Source of the DNA: Candidatus Synechococcus spongiarum SP3
GTDB taxonomy: Bacteria > Cyanobacteriota > Cyanobacteriia > PCC-6307 > Cyanobiaceae
Assembly (NCBI GenBank): GCA_001007665.1
Contig: JXQG01000013.1
Location: forward strand, 1-38,142
Direction of reading: 5' to 3'
DNA: 38,142 nt
Made by a program: the position numbers and the translations under genes. Position 1 is the stretch's first letter. Each line of letters begins with the position of its first letter. The notes beneath the pieces are model-generated. The model ran no database searches. It worked only from the letters and a program-made list of their open reading frames with translations, and was not told the origin of the DNA. Below, piece by piece: positions 12,159 to 37,651 of this stretch.

Positions 12159-13374
12159 TCAGAAGTGCAAACAACTCTTGCTGCGGCATGATGTGAGGAT
12201 GAGCCATGGCAGATACCAGCGCAGGGCATTCCACAGGACCACACTTGTGGCGTGTCTTACTTCAATCTGTACATCACCTAACCGCCAGAGAGATGAATCA
12301 ATGTTTGCTGCATTGACCTTGACAGCAACCTCAATCTGACCTGGCTTGTCGTTGGTCCAGAAGCCAGCACAGTAGTTGCCTAGTGTGACAATGACGTCTT
12401 TGGGATCGCCAGAGAAAATGTTAAGAATTGCCAGACCAACGCTGCTGGGTTTCAGTAAAATTAGCGATTCCCTGGATATGGATTGGACATAGTCAGGGTG
12501 GTAGACTCGCTCCTCTGATCGGTATTTGCGGTATGCAAGGTATGCCCCTGCCTGCACAAGTGTTTCTGCAATGCCCGGCAGGCACAGCCGGTATACCGCA
12601 GTCTCTTGATCCACCGCCAAGTGCTGAATCTTACATTTCCGCTCGGCTTCCTTGTGCTGTCTCTGGGCTTCCTCCTCGCGTTCACGCTTCAGCCGGGTTT
12701 CGTTACGTTGTCTCCGGGCTTTCTCCTCGGCTTCCCTGTGTTGCCTCTGGGCTTCCTTGCGTTGTCTCTGCTCTTCCTCGTGCTGCTGCTGAGCCTCTTC
12801 CTCAAGCCGCTTCCTTTGAGCTTCTTTATGCTCCCGCTCAGTCTCCTCCCGCTCCCGTTTCCGCTGGGCTTCGTTGCGCTGCCGCTTGGCCTTCTCCCCC
12901 TCCCTGTGTTGCCGCTTAGCCTGCTCTACTCTGGCAACAACAGCAGCACCGCCGTTCAGGTCGAAGACGGCCATGGCGGGAGGCTGACCGTAAGGTATTG
13001 TCTGCGCAACCAACCGCTCGCCCCCGGCCAAAGATTCCAGGAACAAGCAGGGCACCGGGACGAACGTAGCGTTATCATCAGTGCTGATGCTCCATCGCCT
13101 GGTTTCAGCATCCGCTGGCGGAAAACGGTACGTGACGCGCTTCCACTCAGACAAGTCGTCACTGTCGTCACCCAGATACTCGTGCCAACAGATGAACGCC
13201 TCGATCCCGCCTGACTTACAGCGAACAACGAGCTTGAACGGCCTGGATTCAGCCCCCGAACTGCCCCCGCCCTCTGGCGTTGAGACTTGCTGTGACCATG
13301 GTCGAGTCGTCAAGAGGGTTTGTGGACTCGCTAATCGTCCACCCTGCGATCTGCTCTTCCTGGGCAGCAGTCAC
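12159..13374 (-). pseudogene. VasI/TagO-like domain protein with long charged coiled coil (frameshifted)
   Basis: From a GTG at 13374 one frame reads VTAAQEEQIAGWTISESTNP, then LDDSTMVTASLNA, and then stops at 13249. The next frame continues the same domain: RPFKLVVRCKSGGIEAFICW, EYLGDD, WSISTDDNATF, ERLVAQTIPYG and AVFDLNG. Together these match the VasI/TagO family (PF11319), known from type VI secretion loci but also found outside them. Removing one C near 13278 joins the frames (SLNAEGGGSSGAESRPF). After the domain come about 110 residues of Glu/Arg/Gln/Lys/His repeats (QRKEAQRQHREAEEKARRQ and similar), strongly predicted coiled coil by eye. A C-terminal domain of about 150 residues follows that I do not recognise (AVYRLCLPGIAETLVQAGAY, PSSVGLAILNIFSGDPKDVI). 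No signal peptide is seen. No type VI genes are nearby. Confidence 0.6.
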
Positions 13375-14135
13375 TGCTTGGCATCCTCAGCCATGGTCCT
13401 GCCATCCTAAAAGACTGCGGGACGTCACGGAAGCTGTGGCAGACCCCGCTCCCCGCCCAACCCCGCCGCCCACGGCCCACTGGAGTTGGAGCTGGACGCC
13501 ACCCGCTCGGAGACCACTGGTGGTGATGCATCTGCCGAGCACGGGGTCATGCTCAGAAGCACACTCCTCCTGGTGACCACAGCTCCTGGAAGGGTTGACA
13601 GGGTTAGACTCCCTCCCTCTCCACCGGATGGGGGAGGAGTCCACCACGTTGCCCCGACCACTGCCACCCTCAGCCCATGGCTACCCCATTCAACCCACCC
13701 TCCTGCCAAGCCGCACACGGGCATCCTCTGCTGGTGTCAGCCTCACCCCACCACCCCCCATTCCTAGCGGAGAAGGCAGGTCACGCCTTCCTTCTCAAGC
13801 TGATCTCCCGTCTCTCAATTGGGTCTTGACCTGCCAGGTCTTGTCCACAAGATGCACCTGCCGGGCCTGGGCGGCTTCAGCCAAGGCTCAATTTCCGGAT
13901 CAGGGGGCCGCAGAGGGAAACTGCCCTCGCGCTGGCTTGGGGCTTGGGGAAGTCTGACGGGAAGAGGGGGAGAGGGGAACACCCTGCTGTGGCCTGTTGT
14001 TATGGCTTTCCAGTCTGTGCCTTGGGGAGGGGGAGCTTCCAAAATCAGGTAGCGCCGGATTCAACCGTCCCCGCGGAATGCCCTCTCCCCCATGAACGTC
14101 AGTATGCTCTTATCCGGAACTCGGGTTACACTACA
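13375..14135. other. Gene-poor tract upstream of the glycosyltransferase
   Basis: No believable gene. The first part (to about 14060) is C/G-rich with several short inverted repeats. One is GAAGGC-7 nt-GCCTTC at 13772-13790, which competes with GAGAAGG-13 nt-CCTTCTC at 13770-13796. Another is GACCTG-C-CAGGTC at 13828-13840. Around 13596-13620 the plus strand resembles the 3' end of a serine tRNA (T-loop-like GGGTTAGACTCCC followed by CTCTCC), but no matching 5' half exists. From about 14100 the DNA becomes A+T-rich and leads into a promoter. Confidence 0.5.
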
Positions 14136-14163
14136 TTGGCAAGGTTTAAATCATTCCTATGAT
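14136..14163 (+). promoter_or_regulatory. Sigma-70 type promoter of the glycosyltransferase-fusion gene
   Basis: TTGGCA (14136-14141), a 16-bp spacer and TATGAT (14158-14163) lie in an A+T-rich patch. Transcription would begin near 14170, giving a leader of about 75 nt before the ATG at 14246. No gene is seen between. Confidence 0.55.
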
Positions 14164-14245
14164 ACTATCTCAGAACAAAATAACATTATTTTAAGTGCGT
14201 TCGTAAAATTCAGCAGCAATAAATATCGGCGTACTTGTCCTGGTC

Positions 14246-16594
14246 ATGATGGATCAAGTGTCGTCGTCACCTCCGAGTGCTGGGCCAGTAGACAGGTTTA
14301 CGACAACTGTTTCTCCAGGCTCCGTGCACGGACAATCTCCATCTTTGCTTTCCGGAGCTCCGGCTCATCCTGATCCCCGGGCCCGTTTCTCGCGCACTTG
14401 GTGGCTACTGATGGTTGCAGTGGCGGTGTTGTCTGCTCTTCTGTTCCTCAGCCAATTGGGCAGCACAGGCTTGGTGGATGAGACACCACCTCTGTTTGCG
14501 GCTGCAGCGCGAAACATGGTGGAGAGCGGTGATTGGCTCACGCCACGGGTGAATGGCAACCCTCGTTTTGACAAGCCGGTGCTGGTGTATTGGCTCATGG
14601 GGCTGGGCTATCGTTGGATTCCCCAGCAACTGGATCCTTTCGGCAGCCTGGCGGCTCGGCTACCCTCTGCCTTGTCAGCCACCGTCTTGAGCCTGGCTCT
14701 GGCGGATCTGCTCTGGTGCTGGCCCCAGAAGCTGGTTGGCAAGGGCAAGGCTTGGCTGGTGCCCCTAATGGCCAGTTTGGGTTTTGGTCTCTGTCCGCTG
14801 GTGCTCATCTGGGCACGCACGGCTGTGAGTGACTTGCTGTTTACAGCCCTGGTCAGTCTCAGCCTGATGGGCTTCTGGCGACACTATGCCAGCCGCAAGC
14901 GCCATGTGCCCGTTGGTTCATGGATCGCCCTGGGGCTGGCGGTGCTCACCAAAGGTCCTCTCGCTCTTGCACTGGCTGGTTTCGTATGCCTGCTCTTTGG
15001 TGTTCGTCAGGGGGAAATCAGCCGACTCTGGAACAACCTCTTGCCCCTCAAGGGTGCCGTGCTGGTGTTGCTGGTGGCATTGCCGTGGTATGGGGCTGAG
15101 TTGATTGTTGAGGGTCAGACCTTTTGGGAAAGCTTTTTCCTGTACCACAATGTTATGCGCTTGACCCAGGTGGTCAACAATCACAGTGGTCCTCTGTGGT
15201 TCTACGCTCCTGTCCTGCTGATTGGGGCCATGCCTCAGTTGCCCATGGCCCTCTATGGCGCCTGGACAGGGCTGGCAGCAAGACAAAGCGGGAGACAGAT
15301 CACCGCAGCGCAGTCCCTGCGCTGTTTTGCGGCCTGCTGGCTGTTAGCCGTTGTGATCATCTTCACCATGGTGGCAACAAAGCTGCCCAGTTACATGCTG
15401 CCGGCCATGCCAGCCATTGGCCTGCTGGTGGGGCTTGCCGCCGGAGACATGGAAGGGAACACTGCAAAAGGATCTGTCTGCGGAGCGGCCTGGCTCAGCC
15501 TGGCACTGGCTGCTCTGGTGGGTATTGGCTGTCTGCTGCAAGAGTTGTGGCTGCCATGGATTCGTGAGCCGGCAATGCCGACGCTGGCTGTAGATGTGCA
15601 AGCCACGGGAGTGATCACCACAATCGGCATGGCTTGGTTGGTGGCGGCAGGGCTAGGGATGCTGACATTGTGGCGCTGTTGGCAAAGCTGGCTGCTGGTG
15701 CTGCAGCTTGTGCTGGTCGCATGGATTCCTCTTGGCTTGCTCCCTCTGGGCAGTCTGGTGGACCACCTGCGGCAGGAACCTGTGCGTGCAATGGCAGTGG
15801 CGGCTCAGGAGCACATTCACCACGGTGAGCCTTTGGCCATGGCCGGCATCAGAAAACCGTCTCTGCATTTCTACAGTGGTCACGTGGTGCGTTATGAGGG
15901 GCACTCCCGCCAGGGCCTGGCGAATCTTGCCCACTGCATCACGTGGAGCCCTGGTTCGGAAACCATGCTGGTGGTGCTGGATCAGTCCACAGCTCAAAAG
16001 CCCTACTGGCGGCGCCTTCCCGGCAAAGTGCTGGCCCAAGCAGGGGTGTATGAACTCCGTCGCCTCAGGCGGCAGAATCTGGAGGCTGTTGTGGCTCAAC
16101 TGCTTCGGGCCGGTGACGTTAAGGGGGATTGTCCGGTTCCCCATTGGGAGAGCTACAACGAGCGTAGAATCGATAGGCGTTCAACAAAATCTCGTTCTGT
16201 GGAAGGAGCAACACTTGGAGCAGGAGCTGTGGGGGAAGCGTCGGTCACTGTGGAAATGCTCCAACTGGCTGTGCCTGCCGACCGGCGTGATGCCTGGCTC
16301 ACCGCGGAAGCTCAAGTCTGGCAGCCATGGCTGGAACAGCAGCAGGGCTATCTGGGTCGGGACCTGTACTGGGATCCTGAAGCAGAGCAAGCCTACGTGC
16401 TGATCCGCTGGCGCTCCCGGCAGGAATGGAAAGCCATTGCCGAGAAGGAGGTGGCCGCTGTGCAAGCCCGCTTTGTGGCAGCGATCAACCAGGTTACCGC
16501 TGAGGATCTTGCTGACCCCATTCCCCTGAAGGCCGCCAGCCAGTGGCTGCTTCTTTCCAGAGAGGCGCCCAAGGCTGCCGAGAGATACGCCTGA
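14246..16594 (+). CDS. GT-C glycosyltransferase (ArnT/PMT-like) fused to a TIGR03792-like domain
   Basis: Residues 1-640 form a polyprenol-phosphate-sugar-dependent membrane glycosyltransferase of the ArnT/PMT_2 type. It would transfer sugars to lipid or protein on the outer face of the inner membrane. The catalytic first loop is visible (LVDETPPLFAAAARNMVESG, with D78-E79, then NGNPRFDKPVLVYWL), along with about ten to twelve membrane helices and a soluble tail ending near HWESYN (633-638). A 28-residue Arg/Ser/Gly-rich linker follows that looks like translated spacer. Residues 669-758 match the cyanobacterial TIGR03792 family (VEMLQLAVPADRRDAWL, GYLGRDLYWDPEAEQAYVLI, RWRSRQEWKAI), small proteins with a dimeric alpha-beta-barrel look. 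The family is usually a separate gene; here the frame is continuous, probably through loss of a stop. The gene is convergent with psaB. Confidence 0.82.
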   Translation: MMDQVSSSPPSAGPVDRFTTTVSPGSVHGQSPSLLSGAPAHPDPRARFSRTWWLLMVAVAVLSALLFLSQLGSTGLVDETPPLFAAAARNMVESGDWLTPRVNGNPRFDKPVLVYWLMGLGYRWIPQQLDPFGSLAARLPSALSATVLSLALADLLWCWPQKLVGKGKAWLVPLMASLGFGLCPLVLIWARTAVSDLLFTALVSLSLMGFWRHYASRKRHVPVGSWIALGLAVLTKGPLALALAGFVCLLFGVRQGEISRLWNNLLPLKGAVLVLLVALPWYGAELIVEGQTFWESFFLYHNVMRLTQVVNNHSGPLWFYAPVLLIGAMPQLPMALYGAWTGLAARQSGRQITAAQSLRCFAACWLLAVVIIFTMVATKLPSYMLPAMPAIGLLVGLAAGDMEGNTAKGSVCGAAWLSLALAALVGIGCLLQELWLPWIREPAMPTLAVDVQATGVITTIGMAWLVAAGLGMLTLWRCWQSWLLVLQLVLVAWIPLGLLPLGSLVDHLRQEPVRAMAVAAQEHIHHGEPLAMAGIRKPSLHFYSGHVVRYEGHSRQGLANLAHCITWSPGSETMLVVLDQSTAQKPYWRRLPGKVLAQAGVYELRRLRRQNLEAVVAQLLRAGDVKGDCPVPHWESYNERRIDRRSTKSRSVEGATLGAGAVGEASVTVEMLQLAVPADRRDAWLTAEAQVWQPWLEQQQGYLGRDLYWDPEAEQAYVLIRWRSRQEWKAIAEKEVAAVQARFVAAINQVTAEDLADPIPLKAASQWLLLSREAPKAAERYA

Positions 16595-16606
16595 CGCCAA
16601 AGCCAC

Positions 16607-16632
16607 AAAAAAAGCCCTCGCAAAGCGAGGGC
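16607..16632 (-). terminator. Rho-independent terminator of psaAB
   Basis: GCCCTCGC (16614-16621), loop AAA, GCGAGGGC (16625-16632) form a perfect 8-bp stem. In the minus direction it is followed by seven T (the A run at 16607-16613). It lies 36 bp beyond the psaB stop and 12 bp beyond the convergent glycosyltransferase stop; the T run makes it strong only for psaB. Confidence 0.9.
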
Positions 16633-16668
16633 CAACATCTCAGGGAACAAAGGGCCTTGGGACAACCC

Positions 16669-18882
16669 TTAGCCAAACCTGCTGGATGTAGAAGCGATGA
16701 GGAAGGCCGCGTAGGTAAGGAAGAACCCAACGGTGAAGTGGGTCAGTCCAACGAGGCGTGCTTGCACAATGGACAGGGCCACGGGCTTATCACGCCAACC
16801 AATCAGGTTTGCCAGTGGCGTGCGCTGATGAGCCCAAACGATGGTCTCAATCAACTCCTGCCAGTAGCCACGCCAGGAGATGAGGAACATGAACCCAACG
16901 GCCCAGGCCAGGTGAGCCAGCAGGAAGATCCAGGCCCAGACGGCCAGATTGTTGACGCCAAACGGGTTGTAGCCATTAATCAACTGGGAACTGTTCAGCC
17001 ACAGGTAATCCCGGAACCAGCCCATGAGATAGGTGCTGGATTCGTTGAACTGCGCCACATTGCCCTGCCATATGGCCAAGTGCTTCCAGTGCCAGTAGAA
17101 GGTGGTCCAGGCGATGGTGTTCAGTGCCCAGAAGAGCGCCAGATAGAAGGCATCCCAAGCAGAGATGTCGCAGGTGCCGCCCCGTCCGGGACCATCACAA
17201 GGGAAGGAGTAGCCGAAGTCCTTTTTGTCGGGCATCAGCTTGGAGCCACGAGCATCCAGGGCGCCCTTCACCAGGATCAGCGTGGTGGTGTGCAGACCCA
17301 GGGCAATGGCGTGGTGAACCAGAAAATCACCAGGACCGATGGGCAGGAACAAATCGGTACTGCCGTTGATTGCATCCAGCCAGTAGTGGGGCCCTGGAAT
17401 GTTCTGGCTGGCCACGGTGGCGGCACTGTTGGCATTCGCCAAGAGCACATCAAAGCCATACATGACCTTGCCATGGGCGGCCTGAATAAACTGGGCGAAA
17501 ACCGGCTCCACCAGAATCTGCTTCTCCGGCGTGCCAAAGGCCACCACCACGTCATTGTGGACGTAGAGCCCCAGGGTGTGGAAGCCCAGGAAGAGAGACA
17601 CCCAGCTCAGGTGGCTGATCAGAGCCTCTTTATGCTCCAGCATCCTCGCCAGAACATTGTTCTTGTTGGCAGCCGGGTCGTAGTCCCGCACGAAGAAGAT
17701 GGCGCCATGGGCAAAGGCGCCGCACATCAGGAAGATGGCAATGTATTGATGGTGCGTGTAGAGGGCAGCCTGCGTCGTATAGTCCCTGGCAATGAAGGCA
17801 TAGGACGGCATGGCGTACATGTGCTGCGCCACCAGGCTGGTGATGACCCCCAAGCCAGCCAGGGCAAGACCCAACTCCATGTGAAGAGAGTTGTTCAGGG
17901 TCTCAAAAATCCCCTTGTGGCCTGCACCCAACTCCCCCGGTGTGCCCGCAGGAGGATTGTGAGCCTCCAGGATGTCCTTGATGGAGTGGCCGATACCGAA
18001 GTTGGTGCGGTACATGTGGCCAGCAATCACAAAGATGACGCCGATGGCCAGGTGATGATGGGCAATGTCCGTCAGCCAGAGGGATTCCGTCTGGGGATGG
18101 AACCCACCAAGGAACGTGAGGATGGCGGTGCCAGCCCCTTCAGAGGTCCCGAAGACCTGGCCCAAGGTGTCGGGATTTTGGGCATAGACACCCCAGTTGC
18201 CGGTGAAGAACGGCCCCAGGCCAGCAGGGTGAGGCAAGGTGGAGAGGAAGTTATCCCAACCAACGTGTTGCCCTCTGGCTTCAGGAATGGCCACATGCAC
18301 CAGGTGACCGGTCCAGGCGATGGAGCTGAATCCAAAGAGGACAGCCAAGTGGTGATTGAGCCGGGCCTCAGCATTCTTGAACCAGGCCAGTGAAGGCCGG
18401 AACTTGGGCTGTAGATGGAGCCAACCTGCGAACAGTGCCCACGCAGAGAGGATCAACATGAATAGCGATCCCTGGTAGAGCTCCAGGTTGGTGCGCATGC
18501 CGATGGTGTACCACCAATGGTAAACACCGGAATAGGCAATGTTCACAGGAGAGGAGGCACCGGCCTGCGTGAAGGCGTCGATGGCTCCTTGGCCAAATTG
18601 AGGATCCCAGATCGCGTGGGCGATGGGACGCACATGCAGTGGATCAGCGACCCACTGCTCGAAGTTGCCTTGCCAGGCGACATGGAACAGGTTGCCCGAA
18701 ACCCAAAGGCCGATGATGGCCAAGTGACCGAAATGGGTAGCGAAGAGCTTCTCGTAGAGACGCTCTTCTGTCATTCCGTCGTGGCTCTCGAAGTCGTGAG
18801 CCGTGGCGATCCCGTACCAGATGCGACGGGTCGTCGGGTCCTGCGCCAGACCCTGGCTAAACGAAGGAAATTTCGTTGCCAT
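16669..18882 (-). CDS. psaB: Photosystem I P700 chlorophyll a apoprotein A2
   Basis: One of the two reaction-centre subunits of photosystem I in the thylakoid membrane. It binds P700, antenna chlorophylls, the branch electron carriers and, jointly with PsaA, the Fx iron-sulfur cluster. The 737-aa product has the standard start [20 protein letters not shown]. The Fx cysteines are C562 and C571 in [12 protein letters not shown], and many His chlorophyll ligands are present ([21 protein letters not shown]). The end, [20 protein letters not shown], is normal. It begins 21 bp after the psaA stop, so the two are one transcript. It ends at a clear terminator. psaL and psaI do not follow it in this window. 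Confidence 0.99.
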
Positions 18883-21625: not shown

Positions 21626-23482
21626 ATGCCGCATTCCAGGCTGACCCAGGTGCGCCTCGGGGTAACGGTTCATCAGCATGGTCTAGGGCCTCTTCTGGAT
21701 TTACGGGACGGTGGCTTCCTGGACGAGGTGGCGGCCCCTGCTGCCCTTGTCGCTGCCACAAACGGGAGTGGGGTGACCGGTTTTTCCCGCGGCCTGGCCC
21801 ACTTCCTGGCCACCTGCTGGCCCCGGTTGCAACTCCTGGTGGCTGCCATGGCCAGCGGCGCCTTGCTCCGCAGCCTTGCTCCCCTGCTCCAGGACAAACA
21901 TCGAGATCCAGCCGTACTGCTTCTGGAGGGCGGCGGCCGGCATGTGATCCCCCTGCTGGGGAGCCATGGGCGGCATGGGGACCAATGGGCGGCGGCCATG
22001 GCAGCCTTCCGCGGTGGAAAAGTGTGGCGTAGCGGCTATAGCAGTGGTTCCGGGCTGCTGGCTCTGGATGGTTTCGGCTCCAGCCTGGGCTGGCAACGGG
22101 GCTTGGGGAGATGGGATGAGCTGGTGAAAGCCTTTGCTCGGGGACAAGGCATGGCTCTGGTTCAGGAGAGTGGCTCCAGGTCCTGGCGCGCCACGGCTGC
22201 AGCCGTACGCTTGCAGCCGGCAGACCCTTTGCCCCCTGGTGAGCCCTGGCTGTACATCGGCCATCGCTCCGCCACCGGAGCGACGGCCCACTGGCATCCA
22301 CCGGTGCTCTGGCTGGGCCTGGGTTGCGAGCGCCATACCCATCAAGCAGTTCTGGAGGCTGCTGTGGAAAAGAGTCTGGCGTCGGCAGGTCTCGCTGCTG
22401 CCGCTGTGGCTGGGGTGGCCAGTCTGGATCGCAAGAGTGATGAGGCCGGGCTGCTGGCGCTGTGCCAACAACGCCAGTGGCCCTTGAAGATCTTCACTGC
22501 GGCCCAACTGGCGGCCATTCCCGTGCCCAACGGATCCCCGGTTGTGGCCAGGCAGGTGGGAACGCCCAGCGTGGCGGAGGCTGCTGCTCTAGCTGCTGCC
22601 GGTGCTGCTGCCAAAACGGGCGCCCGGCTTTTGGCGCCCAAGACGATTGTCCATGGAGAACAGGTATCCGGCGCCGCCACCTGTGCCGTTGCTTTGGCAT
22701 CCAGTCCCTGGGCACCCAGTCGGGGTGCGCTGGATCTCGTTGGCAGTGGTCCGGGGGCGCTGGATCAACTGACCCCTGCAGCCCGATCCGCGTTGGCCGC
22801 AGCCACCGCCTGGGTGGGCTATGGTCCCTATCTGAACCGTCTGGAGCCTCTGCGCGCTCCCCACCAACTGCGGCTTGACGGGGTCCTGGGCAAGGAGAAG
22901 GAGCGTTGCGCAACGGCGCTGGCCATGGCCTGTCAGGGGCAGCGGGTGGCCCTCGTCTCCTCCGGCGACAGTGGCATTTACGGCTTGGCCGGCCTCGCCT
23001 TGGCGTGTTGGCTGGACCTGCCGGAACAAGAGCGTCCCGGCTTTGCCATACATCCCGGTATTTCCGCACTGCAAATGGCAGCCGCCCGCCTTGGCGGACC
23101 TTTGATGCATGATTTTTGCGTCATCAGCCTGAGTGACAAGCTCACCCCCTGGGCCACCATCCAGCAGCGCCTCCATGCCGCCGCCCTGGGAGACTTTGTG
23201 GTAGCCCTCTACAACCCTCGCTCCAAGGAGCGGGTCTGGCAATTGGAAGAAGCCCGGAGAATTCTGTTGGCAGAGCGCTCCGGCAGCACACCGGTGGCCA
23301 TCTGCCGCCAACTGGCCAGGCCGGAGGAGCACATCACCCTTACCACTCTTGCGGCACTGGAGAGCAGCACGGTGGACATGCTCACCCTGGTGTTGGTGGG
23401 CAACAGCCAAACCCGATGGCGGGGCTCCTGGCTCCTGACCCCCAGGGGGTATGACATGGACAGAACTATGGAGTCGGGATGA
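21626..23482 (+). CDS. cobJ: Cobalamin biosynthesis fusion protein CbiG-CobJ (precorrin-3B C17-methyltransferase)
   Basis: Acts in the corrin-ring contraction part of (pseudo)cobalamin synthesis. The N-terminal part (about 1-345) is CbiG-like: its core is FSRGLAHFLATCWPRLQLLV and HVIPLLGSHGRHGDQWAAAM, then the C-terminal CbiG domain LGLGCERHTHQAVLEAAVEK through LASLDRKSDEAGL-type sequence to KTGARLLAPKTIVHGEQVSG. From about residue 370 a SAM-dependent methyltransferase domain (CobJ/CbiH) begins: VGSGPGALDQLTPAAR (373 on), VGYGPYL, VSSGDSGIYGLAGLAL, HPGISALQMAAARLGGPLMH, FVVALYNPRSKER. Length is 618 aa. The fused form is usual in picocyanobacteria, as is divergence from psaA. Its stop codon lies inside the antisense tRNA-Pro gene (9-bp overlap). 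Confidence 0.93.
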   Translation: MPHSRLTQVRLGVTVHQHGLGPLLDLRDGGFLDEVAAPAALVAATNGSGVTGFSRGLAHFLATCWPRLQLLVAAMASGALLRSLAPLLQDKHRDPAVLLLEGGGRHVIPLLGSHGRHGDQWAAAMAAFRGGKVWRSGYSSGSGLLALDGFGSSLGWQRGLGRWDELVKAFARGQGMALVQESGSRSWRATAAAVRLQPADPLPPGEPWLYIGHRSATGATAHWHPPVLWLGLGCERHTHQAVLEAAVEKSLASAGLAAAAVAGVASLDRKSDEAGLLALCQQRQWPLKIFTAAQLAAIPVPNGSPVVARQVGTPSVAEAAALAAAGAAAKTGARLLAPKTIVHGEQVSGAATCAVALASSPWAPSRGALDLVGSGPGALDQLTPAARSALAAATAWVGYGPYLNRLEPLRAPHQLRLDGVLGKEKERCATALAMACQGQRVALVSSGDSGIYGLAGLALACWLDLPEQERPGFAIHPGISALQMAAARLGGPLMHDFCVISLSDKLTPWATIQQRLHAAALGDFVVALYNPRSKERVWQLEEARRILLAERSGSTPVAICRQLARPEEHITLTTLAALESSTVDMLTLVLVGNSQTRWRGSWLLTPRGYDMDRTMESG

Positions 23483-32539: not shown

Positions 32540-32573
32540 CCTTGCCCTGTGAACCTCTCTCCACAGGGCAAGG
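32540..32573 (+). terminator. Strong hairpin between hsp20 and dctP
   Basis: CCTTGCCCTGTG (32540-32551), a 10-nt loop, CACAGGGCAAGG (32562-32573): a perfect 12-bp stem 26 bp after the hsp20 stop. No T run follows, so it is either a non-canonical terminator or a 3'-end stabiliser. It separates hsp20 from the TRAP operon. Confidence 0.6.
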
Positions 32574-32623
32574 TGGGTCATGGGGTTGGGGTTATACTCA
32601 TCCCGGATTCTTCACTGTCCCCC

Positions 32624-33715
32624 ATGAAACGACGCCAGGCACTCACGACGGCTGCCTTCGGCCTGGGTAGCGCTGCCCTGGCGGCTTGCAGCGGACGTGA
32701 GGACAAGCAAAGCCAGGCATCACCAGCCATGACAGGTGGAGAGCAGCCCAGGATTCGCTGGCGCATGGCCACCAGTTGGCCGGAATCTTTGGACACCATC
32801 TATGGCGGCGTGCTCAACCTTGCGGCACGGGTCCGGGACATGAGTGGCGGCCGCTTTGAAATCACCCCTTATGCCGCTGGTGAACTGGTTCCCGGTCTCC
32901 AGGTTCTGGATGCTGTCCAGAGCGGCTCAGTGGAATGTGGCCATACCGCCAGTTACTATTACATTGGCAAGAATCCTGCACTGGCCTTTGGCACAACATT
33001 GCCGTTTGGCCTCAATGCCCAACAACAAAATGCCTGGCTCTATGAAGGCGGTGGCAACGAAGCCATGGATCGTCTCTTCAAAGATTTTGGTGTGCTGGGA
33101 TTTCCCGCGGGGAATACGGGCTCACAAATGGGCGGCTGGTTCAAACAACAGGTCAAAACGGTTGCTGATCTGCAAGGTTTGAAAATGCGGATTCCCGGCC
33201 TTGGTGGAGAGGTGATGGCATCCTTAGGCGTCAACGTGCAAGCCTTGCCGGGCAGCGAGATCTTTCTCGCCCTGGAGCGGGGCGCCATTGACGCTGCAGA
33301 ATGGGTCGGTCCCTATGATGATGAAAAACTGGGCCTGTGGAAAGCCGCCAAGTATTATTACCATCCAGGCTGGTGGGATCCAGGCTCCACAGTTCATGTG
33401 CTCGTGAATCAACGGGCTTGGGAGGCGCTTCCGACAATCTACCAGGACATATTGCGTACGGTAGCCAGTGAAGTGAACCTCAAAATGCTGGCCCGCTACG
33501 ATCAACGCAATAGCGATGCTCTCAAGCGGCTGGTGGCTGGGGGAACCAGCCTGGTTCCTTATGGCCAGGATATTCTTGAGGCCGCTGAGAAGGCCAGCTT
33601 CGAGATCTATGAAGATCATGGGGCCAAGAGTCAGAATTTCCGTCAGATCTATGAATCCTGGTCCCGTTTCCGTGAAGACATCTCCCGCTGGGATCGTATC
33701 CATCGGCTGGCCTGA
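32624..33715 (+). CDS. dctP: TRAP transporter substrate-binding protein (DctP/TakP family)
   Basis: Periplasmic binding protein of a tripartite ATP-independent transporter. The signal begins MKRRQALTTAAFGLGSAALA and ends in a lipobox-like LAAC; the twin arginine suggests Tat export, the Cys (C22) lipidation. The mature part resembles TakP and lactate/2-oxoacid-binding members: RWRMATSWPESLDTIYGGVL, GLKMRIPGLGGEVMASLGVN and AAEWVGPYDDEKLGLWKAAK. The Arg in KMRIPG is the family's carboxylate ligand, and the KYYYHPGWWDPGS stretch is typical of the TakP group. Likely substrate is a 2-oxo or hydroxy monocarboxylate (inference). The frame is open from 32549, but the signal fixes the start at 32624 (363 aa). 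A TATACT box lies at 32593-32598. The stop overlaps dctQ as TGATG. Confidence 0.92.
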   Translation: MKRRQALTTAAFGLGSAALAACSGREDKQSQASPAMTGGEQPRIRWRMATSWPESLDTIYGGVLNLAARVRDMSGGRFEITPYAAGELVPGLQVLDAVQSGSVECGHTASYYYIGKNPALAFGTTLPFGLNAQQQNAWLYEGGGNEAMDRLFKDFGVLGFPAGNTGSQMGGWFKQQVKTVADLQGLKMRIPGLGGEVMASLGVNVQALPGSEIFLALERGAIDAAEWVGPYDDEKLGLWKAAKYYYHPGWWDPGSTVHVLVNQRAWEALPTIYQDILRTVASEVNLKMLARYDQRNSDALKRLVAGGTSLVPYGQDILEAAEKASFEIYEDHGAKSQNFRQIYESWSRFREDISRWDRIHRLA

Positions 33716-34266
33716 TGTCATCCACCTGGTGGCCACGGCTAAGGCGTTGGGCAAACGTCATCGATCAGCTCAGTGCCTGCATGGGTCGGCTGTCCAGTTG
33801 GCTGGTGCTGCTCATGCTGATGGTGGGTGCATGGAACGTGGTGGGTCGGCATCTTGGAGCCCTGATCGGACGGAACCTCAGTTCCAATAGCCTCATCGAG
33901 GTTCAATGGTATCTATTTTCCTTCACGTTTCTCCTGGGCGGGGCTTGGACCCTGCAGCGCAACGGCCATGTTCGGGTTGATGTTTTGCAGAGCCGGTGGG
34001 GGGCACGACAACAAGCCTTGGCCAACATGGTGGGCATAATCCTGTTTTTATTTCCCTTTTCCCTGCTGATGATTCTGTCTTCCTGGGGAGCGGTTCATTT
34101 CTCTTGGAACATCCTTGAGCAATCTCCCGACCCGGGAGGCCTGCCGCGTTATCCGTTGAAAACCTTGTTACCATTGGGTTTTCTGTTGCTTATTTTCCAA
34201 GGAATCGCAGATCTGATTCATAACGTAGAGGCCATACGCGATTCCGAGAAAAAGAGGAAACCGTGA
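33715..34266 (+). CDS. dctQ: TRAP transporter small membrane subunit (DctQ)
   Basis: A 183-aa protein with four hydrophobic helices (starting near SWLVLLMLMVGAWNVVGR, LIEVQWYLFSFTFLLGGA, MVGIILFLFPFSLLMILSSW, LLPLGFLLLIFQGIADLIHN). It carries the family phrase EVQWYLFSFTFLLGGAWTLQRNGHVRVDV, which marks DctQ proteins of the TakQ/FcbT2 type. It connects the binding protein to the large permease. Its ATG shares bases with the dctP stop (TGATG), and its own stop overlaps the dctM start in the same way, so translation of the three is coupled. Confidence 0.92.
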   Translation: MSSTWWPRLRRWANVIDQLSACMGRLSSWLVLLMLMVGAWNVVGRHLGALIGRNLSSNSLIEVQWYLFSFTFLLGGAWTLQRNGHVRVDVLQSRWGARQQALANMVGIILFLFPFSLLMILSSWGAVHFSWNILEQSPDPGGLPRYPLKTLLPLGFLLLIFQGIADLIHNVEAIRDSEKKRKP

Positions 34267-35609
34267 TGGACGCAACCACATCCTGGATGGGGCCCGGCAT
34301 GTTTGTTGTGGCTTTGGCATGTCTGCTGTTGGGCTATCCAGTGGCCTTTACCCTGGGTGGCGTGGCTGTTCTGTTCGCAGGAGTCGGCATTGCCACCGGA
34401 ACCTTTAACGAGCTATTCCTCACGGCCCTGCCCCAGCGTGTCTTCGGCATCATGGGCAACTTTACGCTCCTGGCCATCCCGGCCTTTATCTTCATGGGCG
34501 CCATGCTGAAAAGCTCCGGTTTGGCGGAGCAGTTGCTGGAGGCCATGGGGCGGGTGCTGGGACGGGTGCGGGGCGGCTTGGCGCTGGCCGTGGTGTTGGT
34601 GGGGGCATTGTTGGCTGCTACCACCGGTGTTGTGGCAGCCACGGTAATCACCATGGGGCTCATCTCCCTGCCCACAATGCTCCGCCATGGTTACGACAAA
34701 TCCTTGGCCACGGGCGTGATTGCCGCATCGGGAACACTGGGACAAATCATTCCTCCCAGCATTGTGCTGGTGGTTCTGGGTGATCAGCTGGGGGTTCCCG
34801 TCGGGGATTTGTTTATCGGTTCCGTCATCCCTGGTTTGCTGATGGCCGTGGTTTTTGGGCTCTACGTATTGGTGATCACCCAGTGTAGACCCAATCTGGC
34901 CCCACTTCTGCCTGCCGGTGGCGACGGCCGATCCCTGGGCCAGGAACTGCAGCAGGCGGCGCCGCTGGTCTTGCCGCCGTTGGCATTGATTTTGCTGGTG
35001 TTGGGGAGCATCTTTTTCGGGGTTGCCACACCCACGGAGGCAGGCGCCATGGGTGCTGTGGGGGCCATGGCCCTGGCAGCGTGGAACGGCCGGCTGAGCC
35101 TGGGCGCCATCAGGGAAGTGAGTGAAGACACCCTGTCCACAACCACCATGGTGATGTTCATTCTGCTGGGCTCCACGGCCTTCAGCCTGGTGTTCCGCGG
35201 CTTCGACGGGGATAGCTTGATTGCCGACCTGCTCCTCCGTCTTCCCGGTAATTCTGCAGGCTTTCTCATCATCAGCATGGCCACAATTTTTGTCCTGGGC
35301 TTTTTTATCGACTTTTTCGAGATTGCCTTCATTGTTGTCCCGCTTTTTGCACCTGTTGCCAAGACCCTTTTTGGGCCGGAAGCCCTGGTCTGGTATGGCG
35401 TTATTATTGGGACTAACCTGCAATCATCTTTCCTTACACCACCCTTCGGGTTTGCATTATTTTATCTCCGCAGTGTTGCCCCTGGGCAAGTGACCACAGG
35501 TCATATCTACCGTGGCGCCATCCCTTTCATTCTCCTGCAGGTTCTGGTTATGCTGCTCATTATTGTGTTTCCCCAGTTGGTCACTGCTTTGCCACATCTG
35601 GTGGCATGA
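34266..35609 (+). CDS. dctM: TRAP transporter large permease (DctM)
   Basis: The sodium-driven permease of the TRAP system, 447 aa, with about eleven to twelve membrane helices. Family landmarks include FIFMGAMLKSSGLAEQLLEA, GALLAATTGVVAATVITMGL, a GTLGQIIPPSIVLVVLGDQL half-helix, GVATPTEAGAMGAVGA and a second LQSSFLTPPFGFALFYLRS half-helix; the two PPS/TPP signatures mark the substrate and ion sites. The ATG at 34266 overlaps the dctQ stop as TGATG; a GTG at 34263 is the alternative. With dctP and dctQ the transporter is complete and undamaged, which argues it is in use. Confidence 0.94.
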   Translation: MDATTSWMGPGMFVVALACLLLGYPVAFTLGGVAVLFAGVGIATGTFNELFLTALPQRVFGIMGNFTLLAIPAFIFMGAMLKSSGLAEQLLEAMGRVLGRVRGGLALAVVLVGALLAATTGVVAATVITMGLISLPTMLRHGYDKSLATGVIAASGTLGQIIPPSIVLVVLGDQLGVPVGDLFIGSVIPGLLMAVVFGLYVLVITQCRPNLAPLLPAGGDGRSLGQELQQAAPLVLPPLALILLVLGSIFFGVATPTEAGAMGAVGAMALAAWNGRLSLGAIREVSEDTLSTTTMVMFILLGSTAFSLVFRGFDGDSLIADLLLRLPGNSAGFLIISMATIFVLGFFIDFFEIAFIVVPLFAPVAKTLFGPEALVWYGVIIGTNLQSSFLTPPFGFALFYLRSVAPGQVTTGHIYRGAIPFILLQVLVMLLIIVFPQLVTALPHLVA

Positions 35610-35657: not shown

Positions 35658-36128
35658 ATGCTTGGCAAGCTTGTCGTGGTTGCCGCGGCCTGTATCCTGC
35701 CCCTGACCCTGAACTCGGTCATCCTCAGCCTGTTTGGACAGGAAAGTCCGGACCGGGCTGAACATGGGCTTGTGGGAATCTTGCTGCTTCTGGGTGTGGT
35801 TGGGACCAGCACCCACAATTGGGACAAGCCTGGTGAAGCCGTTGGCATTGTTGCCCTGGCCCTTGTGCCGTGTTACCTGAGCACGATCTTCCCGGATTGG
35901 GATCTCCGGCTGCTGGGGATCGGCGCTCACCGCAACCCTCTCTTCCACAGCAGCTTGTCGTTCCTGGCGCTGCGCCTGCTGGTGGGATCGCAGATGCGCC
36001 TCCCCCACGTTCTGATCACAGGCTACGGCAGCGGCAAGCAAAACCCTGCCCCATTGCTCATGTTTTACTTCTTGTATTTCTTGCCCTCCAAGACTGAATC
36101 TTTTCAAGCAACTCAGCTTGAAAACTGA
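35658..36128 (+). pseudogene. Truncated membrane metal-dependent hydrolase-like protein (YdjM-type)
   Basis: A frame of 156 aa with a good ribosome site (AAGGAAGG, then CC before the ATG at 35658). It has three to four hydrophobic helices and the phrase IFPDWDLRLLGIGAHRNPLFHSSLSFL. This resembles the PD-D/HR-HS metal-binding signature of membrane-bound YdjM-like hydrolases (PF04307). The family normally continues with more helices and a second HLLxD-type motif; here the frame ends instead with MLMFYFLYFLPSKTES-like sequence read through the antisense 3' end of the OLD gene (70-bp overlap). I infer that the gene lost its C-terminus when the OLD region arrived. The family call is moderate; a complete short membrane protein remains possible. 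Confidence 0.45.
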
Positions 36129-37651
36129 GCATAGCCCCACGCCGGGCAGCGGTCTCAGTACAACCACTCAGACGCGCCAAGTGCTCCGGCGTACGTCTGA
36201 ATCTCTCAGCAAGAGCCTCAAGGGCTGGCTTCCAAATCTGGTTTGTTTGAAGATGATGATGCCCCTGATAGATTTGTTCAATCTCAGCCAAGCTGCGTTT
36301 CAGTTCCTCCGGGGCCACACCCAGGTCATTGGCATAGTCCTGTGAGTGCTCTTGTAAAATGCTCCAGATCAATTGCTCTGGTGCGGTAGAGCCGGGGAGG
36401 ATCAACGGCTCCGGCATATATCCATAGGCCTCGGCTGCTGCCATAACGGGTTGCACCTTATCTTGTGCATCGCCATCCAGAACCATGAGGCAATCTGCCA
36501 GGCAACCAAACTTTCCTAAAGCACGGACATGGCCTGCAAACTCGCTGCTACCGGTATCCCGGCCAACCAGGAGGGCGTCAGGAGCAAGAGGGGGATCCAG
36601 CGTCGGGTTGATGGCGTCTAATACCCCCAGCACAATTGCTTCCGATATTTTGTCTTCGCAGAGAATTGAGAGTCGATCATGAGATTGTCCGTAAAGAGCT
36701 TTTTGCAGAATGTCCTTATAGGGAGTTGTTATCATTTGGACATGATCTGTATCAGCGTTGCGATCAAGAAAGATACGACCTTCAGGAGGTACACTATCGA
36801 GCACTATCGTGCTGTGAGAAGCAGCAACAATAATCTGCAAGTCTTGACGAAGTGCAATGCGTTGTAGTCCCAACATGATTTGCTGCTGAGTGTAGGGATG
36901 GAGACCAGCCTCAATTTCATCAATGAGGACAAGAGCGCCTTGCAGCTTGGATAATTCCTTCGAGAAGCGAAGTACAGCTCGCTCACCTGTAGACATGTGG
37001 AATTCTGAATAGCCCGTCGATTGTTGATTATCAAGTTGAGCAAATAAAAGATCACATTTCTGTGTCTTGATTAAAGCAAGATTCCGATAGCGCTGTGGCA
37101 AGATTCTCTTGGCAAACATCAGAGATTTTACAGGGAGGTTTTGCGTTAGAAATTCCTTGCGTGCCAATTGCAGGAAGCTACGCACCTCAGCAGGGTTCGT
37201 AAAATTTGCCAGGGTGCGTATGTATAGTTTTCTTTCTGGTTGCTTTCCCCCTGGGCGACCCATATAGCTGCGATTCCAGGATTTACCACGTCTCCATACC
37301 ATAGTATAAGATGATCCTTTGTGTTGATAATCAAATTCCAATTCAGTTTTGACAGGAACGTCGCTGATCTTCTGCTCTTGTTTGTTAATAAAATTAGGAA
37401 ATATCGTGCTCGGTGTCATCTCGCGATTGGCGGCTGGGATCCTGATACGCGCAGGCACAGGCAAACAGGACGGTAGACTTGCCGCAACCATTGGGACCAG
37501 CGAGCATACAGACAGGGTAGCGAAAGCGAACTTTTAGATCCTGAATACCGCGCAAGTTCCTGATGCGAACAGCTTGGAGAGCTTCAGGTCCAGGAGCTTT
37601 TGCTCGCAAAGCATCCCAGACGCCAAGCAATTGCTGGTCAATCAGCGCCAA
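36058..37651 (-). pseudogene. OLD-family ATPase/TOPRIM nuclease, frameshifted
   Basis: From a TTG at 37651 one frame reads LQAVRIRNLRGIQDLKVRF and Walker A GPNGCGKST (37472-37498), then ends at 37394 (DTEHDIS). The expected continuation (REMTPSTIFPNF, then MVWRRGKSWNRSYMGRPGGK) is in the next frame and runs to 36058. One extra T near 37435 would explain it. The second part has an ABC-type signature (FHMSTGERAVLRFS), Walker B LVLIDEIEAGLHPYTQQQ and ASHSTIVLDSVP. A TOPRIM nuclease domain follows (ILCEDKISEAIV, LVGRDTG, LMVLDGDAQDK). OLD nucleases act in phage defence, alone or with partner helicases as in Gabija; no partner is visible here. The 36650-37400 stretch is clearly more A+T-rich than its neighbours, a sign of transfer. 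Confidence 0.75.

Follow-up and report, generated by a model that had tools for sequence, protein, structure and literature searches.

Proteins of the ABM fold are mostly dimeric enzymes that act on small molecules, and the heme-degrading monooxygenases IsdG and MhuD carry an Asn-Trp-His catalytic triad. ArnT, the 4-amino-4-deoxy-L-arabinose transferase, moves L-Ara4N from undecaprenyl phosphate to lipid A. The available sections of PMC7801869 describe ArnT as a 13-helix membrane region with a periplasmic domain. Here we analyzed a cyanobacterial gene in which an ArnT-like glycosyltransferase and an ABM-fold domain of the TIGR03792 family are encoded in one frame. A literature search returned no paper on TIGR03792 and none on a fusion of an ABM monooxygenase with a glycosyltransferase in cyanobacteria, and the available part of PMC6506613 holds nothing on the fused gene.

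The window, that is, the whole stretch of DNA that we analyzed, comprises 38,142 bases and is the complete contig C111 of genome G000, a 2.13-Mb genome of 117 contigs that is 95.8% complete. Its genus is the Ca. Synechococcus spongiarum group of sponge symbionts, whose named records include Candidatus Synechococcus spongiarum isolate 1 and Synechococcus sp. SB0662_bin_14. We refer to the other genomes of the genus as G001 to G009.

The fused gene and its two parts

A preliminary description of this DNA had proposed that a GT-C enzyme runs in frame into a TIGR03792-like domain. Both parts are indeed encoded in one open frame of 782 codons (Table 1), and the sizes given for them were about right, with 645 glycosyltransferase residues up to the position of the stop codon in relatives. 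The NCBIfam model TIGR03792 matched residues 669-745 with 94.5 bits (E = 2.6e-27) against a cut-off of 45.75, which places the domain in that family. All other full copies that we read are free-standing genes for separate small proteins, as had been anticipated, and they bear leaders in the Synechococcus family, whereas here TIGR03792 is a C-terminal domain within a much longer frame. The fusion is genuine in the assembly and was seen in one lineage only; it rests on one assembled genome, in which a single codon (16181-16183) decides.

Table 1. Positions of features in and around the fused gene, numbered from the first base of the window
Feature	Position	Strand	Detail or basis
Fused gene	14246..16594	+	782 codons, ATG to TGA
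GT-C glycosyltransferase, residues 1-645	14246..16180	+	up to position of relatives' stop
Glycosyltransferase membrane part, residues 50-509	14393..15772	+	AlphaFold2 helices; alignment to ArnT 5f15
Glycosyltransferase soluble C-terminal domain, residues 511-621	15776..16108	+	predicted periplasmic by ArnT homology; topology from the available part of PMC7801869
Linker, residues 633-664	16142..16237	+	pLDDT under 50
TCA (Ser646) at glycosyltransferase stop position of G004 (TAA), G007 (TAA) and G003 (TGA)	16181..16183	+	
GGA at ATG position of leaderless TIGR03792 remnants in G004 and G007	16223..16225	+	
TIGR03792 domain, ABM-type alpha/beta fold	16238..16594	+	
Domain 5' segment, nearest leaderless glycosyltransferase-adjacent remnants (G004, G007)	16238..16327	+	
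Domain 3' segment, nearest psaB-adjacent copy of G008	16336..16537	+	switch between 16322 and 16336
In-frame GTG after purine-rich GGAGCAGGAG, possible internal start	16229..16231	+	sequence
Promoter-like site upstream of glycosyltransferase	14136..14163; second at 14180-14209	+	consensus match only
Terminator-like hairpin, interval between fused gene and psaB	16613..16633	-	
psaB, convergent with fused gene	16669..18882	-	

The sole PDB sequence match to the fused protein up to E = 1 was ArnT 5ezm (7.3e-26). The ArnT equivalog model PRK13279 of NCBIfam aligned to residues 58-495 with 114.7 bits, far under its cut-off of 567, so that the equivalog model does not assign the protein to ArnT; the Pfam model PMT_2 was also sub-threshold (21.5 of 26.1 bits). 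An AlphaFold2 model of the whole protein, built on a 43-row alignment, reached a mean pLDDT of 85.5. In it, the membrane helices end at residue 509 and are followed by a soluble alpha/beta domain that ends at 621, a disordered linker (633-664), and another alpha/beta domain spanning 666-770. With VIA-align, residues 50-608 superposed on ArnT 5f15 (Z 37.7, 512 residues, 3.7 Å), and this membrane fold with its C-terminal soluble domain assigns the protein to the GT-C superfamily. The fused protein thus shares with ArnT (5ezm/5f15) both the membrane fold and the fold of the C-terminal domain, but it bears an additional C-terminal domain and is only about 21% identical. A DE pair at residues 78-79 lies, by sequence, in the first large loop past membrane helix 1 and also occurs in ArnT; we take it to be catalytic in ArnT-type enzymes. 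Judged from its fold, the fused protein would be a GT-C enzyme that works on the periplasmic side and takes its sugar from a polyprenyl-phosphate donor. Because the C-terminal domain of ArnT is periplasmic, the linker and the TIGR03792 domain are predicted by homology to be periplasmic as well, which agrees with the earlier proposal that the small domain is placed beside a membrane glycosyltransferase. For sugar transfer, the TIGR03792 domain is probably dispensable.

Modeled alone on a 36-row alignment, the small domain reached a pLDDT of 88.7 and showed the order beta-alpha-beta-beta-alpha-beta of the ABM fold. The ABM model PF03992 stayed below its gathering threshold of 23.1 bits, with 17.2 bits for the whole protein and 20.6 bits for the C-terminal piece alone. 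Structure comparison matched the domain to 1iuj (Z 12.6, 99 residues, 2.5 Å) and MhuD 4nl5 (Z 11.1, 99 residues, 3.0 Å), with RslO4, WhiE-ORFI, and SnoaB also among the best rows, and many of the 50 rows shown, which range from Z 9.5 to 12.6, are titled ABM or related. The fold is therefore common to the small domain and ABM-type dimeric alpha/beta-barrel proteins (1iuj, SnoaB, MhuD, and IsdG), but identity is 4-20% in the 50 rows shown, and the small domain has no conserved His. A Trp of the domain aligns with the Trp of the MhuD motif HWES (E 0.34 and weaker). In the 36-row TIGR03792 alignment, no invariant or 90% column holds Asn or His, so that the IsdG/MhuD triad is missing, and with no conserved His we did not retain a heme-degrading role of the MhuD/IsdG type.

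Apart from the fused copy, the window's genome gave no TIGR03792 match up to E = 1. With invariant columns computed without the fused copy in the alignment, this copy has the consensus residue in each of the 7 columns that do not vary among the other 35 rows (Glu, Leu, Val, three Trp, and Phe), and likewise in each of the 15 without variation among the 21 genus and family rows. Pairwise dN/dS (Nei-Gojobori) between the fused domain and nine full copies was 0.19-0.31 (9 pairs), which falls inside the range of 0.13-0.50 among the other full copies (36 pairs), and the glycosyltransferase part gave 0.20-0.25 (five pairs). Since these values span time before the fusion, they indicate that there is no strong relaxation rather than selection on the fusion itself.

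Within the fused gene, a consensus scan covering 14000-16800 revealed no promoter-like site on the + strand. Upstream of the glycosyltransferase, a 384-codon frame on the - strand (12159-13313) has no Pfam match and may not be a gene.

Counterparts of the locus in related genomes

Among the ten genomes of the genus, the window's genome counted, the fusion occurs in G000 only. The glycosyltransferase is present in six of the ten (G000, G001, G003, G004, G006, and G007), and no match to it up to E = 0.001 was found in G002, G005, G008, and G009, whose stated completeness is 95, 95, 73, and 89%. TIGR03792 matched in all ten genomes (E up to 1) and exceeded the cut-off in nine, with only a remnant in G007. 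Our search for the same fusion in relatives thus came back empty for the other nine genomes of the genus, while it did find the two genes adjoining and separate in G001 and G003.

G001 and G003 (named record L066, Synechococcus sp. SB0662_bin_14) have the same gene order, orientation, and psaB adjacency as the window, but a stop codon separates the two genes and TIGR03792 has its own leader. In G001, the glycosyltransferase is followed by a stop and then by a leader-bearing TIGR03792 gene; in G003, the stop is TGA and the gene behind it is a single leader-bearing one with two tandem TIGR03792 domains. The two domains of this tandem gene (L020:6051-6881) share 63% and 54% identity with the fused one. 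In G004, a TAA stop is followed by 5 codons, an ATG, and the start of a leaderless TIGR03792 copy that breaks off after about 30 codons, and a second, full, leader-bearing copy starts about 400 bases further on. G007 repeats the TAA stop, the leaderless start, and the decay on a short contig, so that the glycosyltransferase-adjacent copies of both genomes are leaderless. G006 has a stop and then a decayed TIGR03792 remnant with traces of a leader, and its full copy lies on another contig.

The three closest relatives that bear the glycosyltransferase therefore have TAA, TAA, and TGA where the window has TCA, and the remnants of G004 and G007 lie downstream of the glycosyltransferase in the same frame. 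Between the stop position and the former ATG, G000 has 14 codons whereas G004 and G007 have 6; the difference is exactly 24 nucleotides, and since this net difference amounts to 8 codons, the frame is kept. Together, these findings provide good support for the proposal, already made in the preliminary description, that loss of a stop codon joined the glycosyltransferase to its neighbor. The same description had taken the linker for translated spacer, which is incomplete: our comparison indicates that the linker also includes the 5' end of a leaderless glycosyltransferase-adjacent TIGR03792 copy, and the domain behind it is a mosaic of two copies.

Over the first 31 codons, the fused domain matched the G004 and G007 remnants at 74/87 and 74/90 sites, compared with 54-61/87 and 55-63/90 for the nine other full copies; these 5' parents are short, at 87-90 sites. 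Identity to the G008 copy rose from 64/93 before the switch to 182/207 after it (Fisher p below 0.0005), and G008 showed no comparable jump in any of its 8 comparisons with the remaining full copies. A weaker rise was seen against G005 (66/93 to 169/207, p 0.048, among nine full-copy comparisons). We also counted private sites, defined as those absent from G002, G006b, G009, G004b, G005, and G001, with the two G003 domains outside the set. None of the 12 sites private to the fused domain and the remnants lies beyond 16322, a limit that is partly by construction because the remnants end there. The 7 sites private to the fused domain and G008 all lie at or after 16336, and this limit is not by construction. 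By these comparisons, the fused domain is a mosaic of about 30 codons of the leaderless glycosyltransferase-adjacent type and a G008-like remainder. Since the switch coincides with the breakpoint of the G004 and G007 remnants, it is explained most simply if recombination with a full copy restored a leaderless copy that had been truncated.

A domain that combines two kinds of copy, found in a single genome and in a genus where G004 holds tandem copies, could also come from a chimeric assembly of two TIGR03792 copies, or the stop codon could have been lost to a sequencing error. We consider such an artifact very improbable. The usual assembly overlap exceeds 9 bases, and no exact run of 9 or more bases is shared between the last third of the G004 remnant (columns 60-93, at the switch) and the G008 copy, which makes a chimera assembled across a repeat less likely. 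Moreover, the change of the stop comes together with loss of the ATG and the 24-nucleotide in-frame length difference.

Predicted export of TIGR03792 proteins

We called leaders by hydropathy only, as a 14-residue mean of at least 1.8 within 25 codons of an in-frame start and upstream of the domain. A leader was found in all 8 genus loci with a full free TIGR03792 copy and in 29/29 other loci of the Synechococcus family, which makes 37/37 for genus and family. The 29 loci comprise 8 named Synechococcus records, whose family is assumed from their names and of which several are closely related, and 21 other genomes, with repeat views of one gene (L090 and L102) excluded from the count. In three of the 29 that were picked for their long open frames (L091, L093, and L095), 49-57 residues separate the hydrophobic stretch from the domain behind it. 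On the other hand, 0/22 loci from other cyanobacterial families, which are all such loci among the 30 best class-sample rows, had a leader, and their highest hydropathy was 1.35. By these counts, the TIGR03792 proteins of the Synechococcus family are probably exported and those of the other families sampled probably cytosolic, an apparent change of compartment. This contrast is the more general outcome of the analysis and narrows the search for the function of TIGR03792.

Residues 616-670 of the fused protein, which contain the linker, have no leader-like stretch, with a best 14-residue hydropathy of 1.06 against the required 1.8. With export predicted for the free relatives and no leader on the fused copy, the glycosyltransferase may supply both export and anchor. 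If the C-terminal domain is periplasmic as in ArnT, the fusion would return the leaderless domain to the predicted compartment of its relatives. Given a leader of its own, the domain can do without such a carrier, as shown by the four of ten genus genomes without a glycosyltransferase match.

It is conceivable that the domain is instead made mainly as a separate, leaderless, cytosolic protein from an internal start at GTG 16229, 16199, or 16250, and that the long frame is incidental. The frame does offer start candidates near the domain (GTG 16199, GTG 16250, and ATG 16256, in addition to the GTG behind GGAGCAGGAG), and TIGR03792 is leaderless in all 22 loci from other cyanobacterial families. 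However, the ATG of G004 and G007 has become GGA in the window, and a leader accompanies the free copy in every one of the 37 loci tested in genus and family. We therefore regard two separate products as improbable.

The best explanation, and in our view a fairly probable one, is that the gene encodes an ArnT-like GT-C enzyme with a TIGR03792 ABM-fold tail on a flexible periplasmic linker, which arose by leader loss, recombination, and stop loss. A leader-bearing TIGR03792 gene would have lain directly 3' of the glycosyltransferase, as it still does in G001 and G003, and the leader of this adjacent copy would have been lost in the lineage to which the window, G004, and G007 belong. In the window's lineage, a full copy would then have donated the 3' two thirds of the domain by recombination. 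Finally, the glycosyltransferase stop would have become TCA and the old start would have disappeared, so that the domain would now be made as a tail. The glycosyltransferase would carry this leaderless domain through export and anchor it in the membrane, which would bring it again to the outer side of the inner membrane. The separate genes, stop codons, absence of a leader, and mosaic come from the comparison of loci, and from them we infer the order of the steps, export, and use as one polypeptide. The locus is a natural, stepwise example of a neighboring gene turning into part of a membrane enzyme, and sister species probably still preserve the intermediates.

A more far-reaching version, which we offer tentatively and hold for possible but not probable, is that stop loss rescued export: a signal-less duplicate of a secreted ABM protein, rebuilt by a sister copy, would have been re-exported and anchored as a GT-C tail and would make the glycosyltransferase a dimer if the ABM domains pair. 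Dimerization of the glycosyltransferase is possible because ABM proteins are mostly dimeric.

Neighbors and spread of TIGR03792

The preliminary description had also expected the fusion to give a functional clue to the TIGR03792 family, and our comparison did not support this expectation. In other genera of the family, the glycosyltransferase and TIGR03792 lie 38 kb to 1.8 Mb apart in 43/43 same-contig pairs among the matches listed; these pairs were picked by eye outside the genus, with both genes among the listed matches and pairs on different contigs left uncounted. With all 43 pairs at least 38 kb apart and TIGR03792 kept without the glycosyltransferase in 4/10 genus genomes, we rejected a functional tie. 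A functional link to the glycosyltransferase is thus poorly supported, and the fusion tells little about what TIGR03792 does. No glycosyltransferase match was found in seven family frames of more than 300 codons, among the matches listed, and the listed TIGR03792 frames of the class sample other than that of G000 have at most 274 codons. The fusion pairs two known families in a combination that we did not see elsewhere in our searches, among the matches listed, and it looks young and lineage-specific.

This distribution also bears on whether the tail is a neutral accident, a passenger on the glycosyltransferase that is headed for decay as in G004 and G007 and is tolerated on account of a C-terminus that extends freely into the periplasm. 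That the adjacent copies of G004, G007, and G006 have decayed, that the two genes show no genomic tie in other family genera, and that the fusion occurs in just one genus genome would all fit such an accident. Yet the leaderless copies behind a kept stop are the decayed ones (G004 and G007, where a single event may account for the decay of both), while the fused copy is full length, is the sole TIGR03792 match in a 95.8%-complete genome, keeps 7/7 invariant residues, and has a pairwise dN/dS of 0.19-0.31. We consider a passenger tail unlikely and retain the exported, anchored domain as the preferred reading.

The order GT-C glycosyltransferase, TIGR03792, psaB was seen in four genomes of the genus (G000, G001, G003, and G004), and the 3' end of psaB adjoins TIGR03792 in the window and in 7/8 other genus loci with a full free copy. 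The exception is G005, where no full psaB was found in the 10 kb read around TIGR03792. Close to its full TIGR03792 gene, G005 also has a TIGR03792 fragment (L022:6826-7117) that lies beside a psaB-like piece of 45 residues with 67% identity. In other Synechococcus, none of the 13 loci searched had a psaB match beside TIGR03792, and a tie to photosystem I was rejected because the adjacency looks lineage-specific. In the five of these other Synechococcus loci with frames listed, TIGR03792 lies between genes other than psaB, which we take to resemble ispF or trmD, and larB. TIGR03792 itself is widespread, with matches in 277/300 family genomes and 68/117 class genomes.

Elsewhere in the window, one frame joins the N and C parts of CbiG to a tetrapyrrole methylase domain (21626-23482) as a cobalamin gene fusion. 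Three adjoining genes at 32549-35609 encode a DctP-DctQ-DctM TRAP transporter, and the - strand at 36058-37491 encodes an AAA_21-type ATPase, a Pfam family whose description mentions AbiEii.
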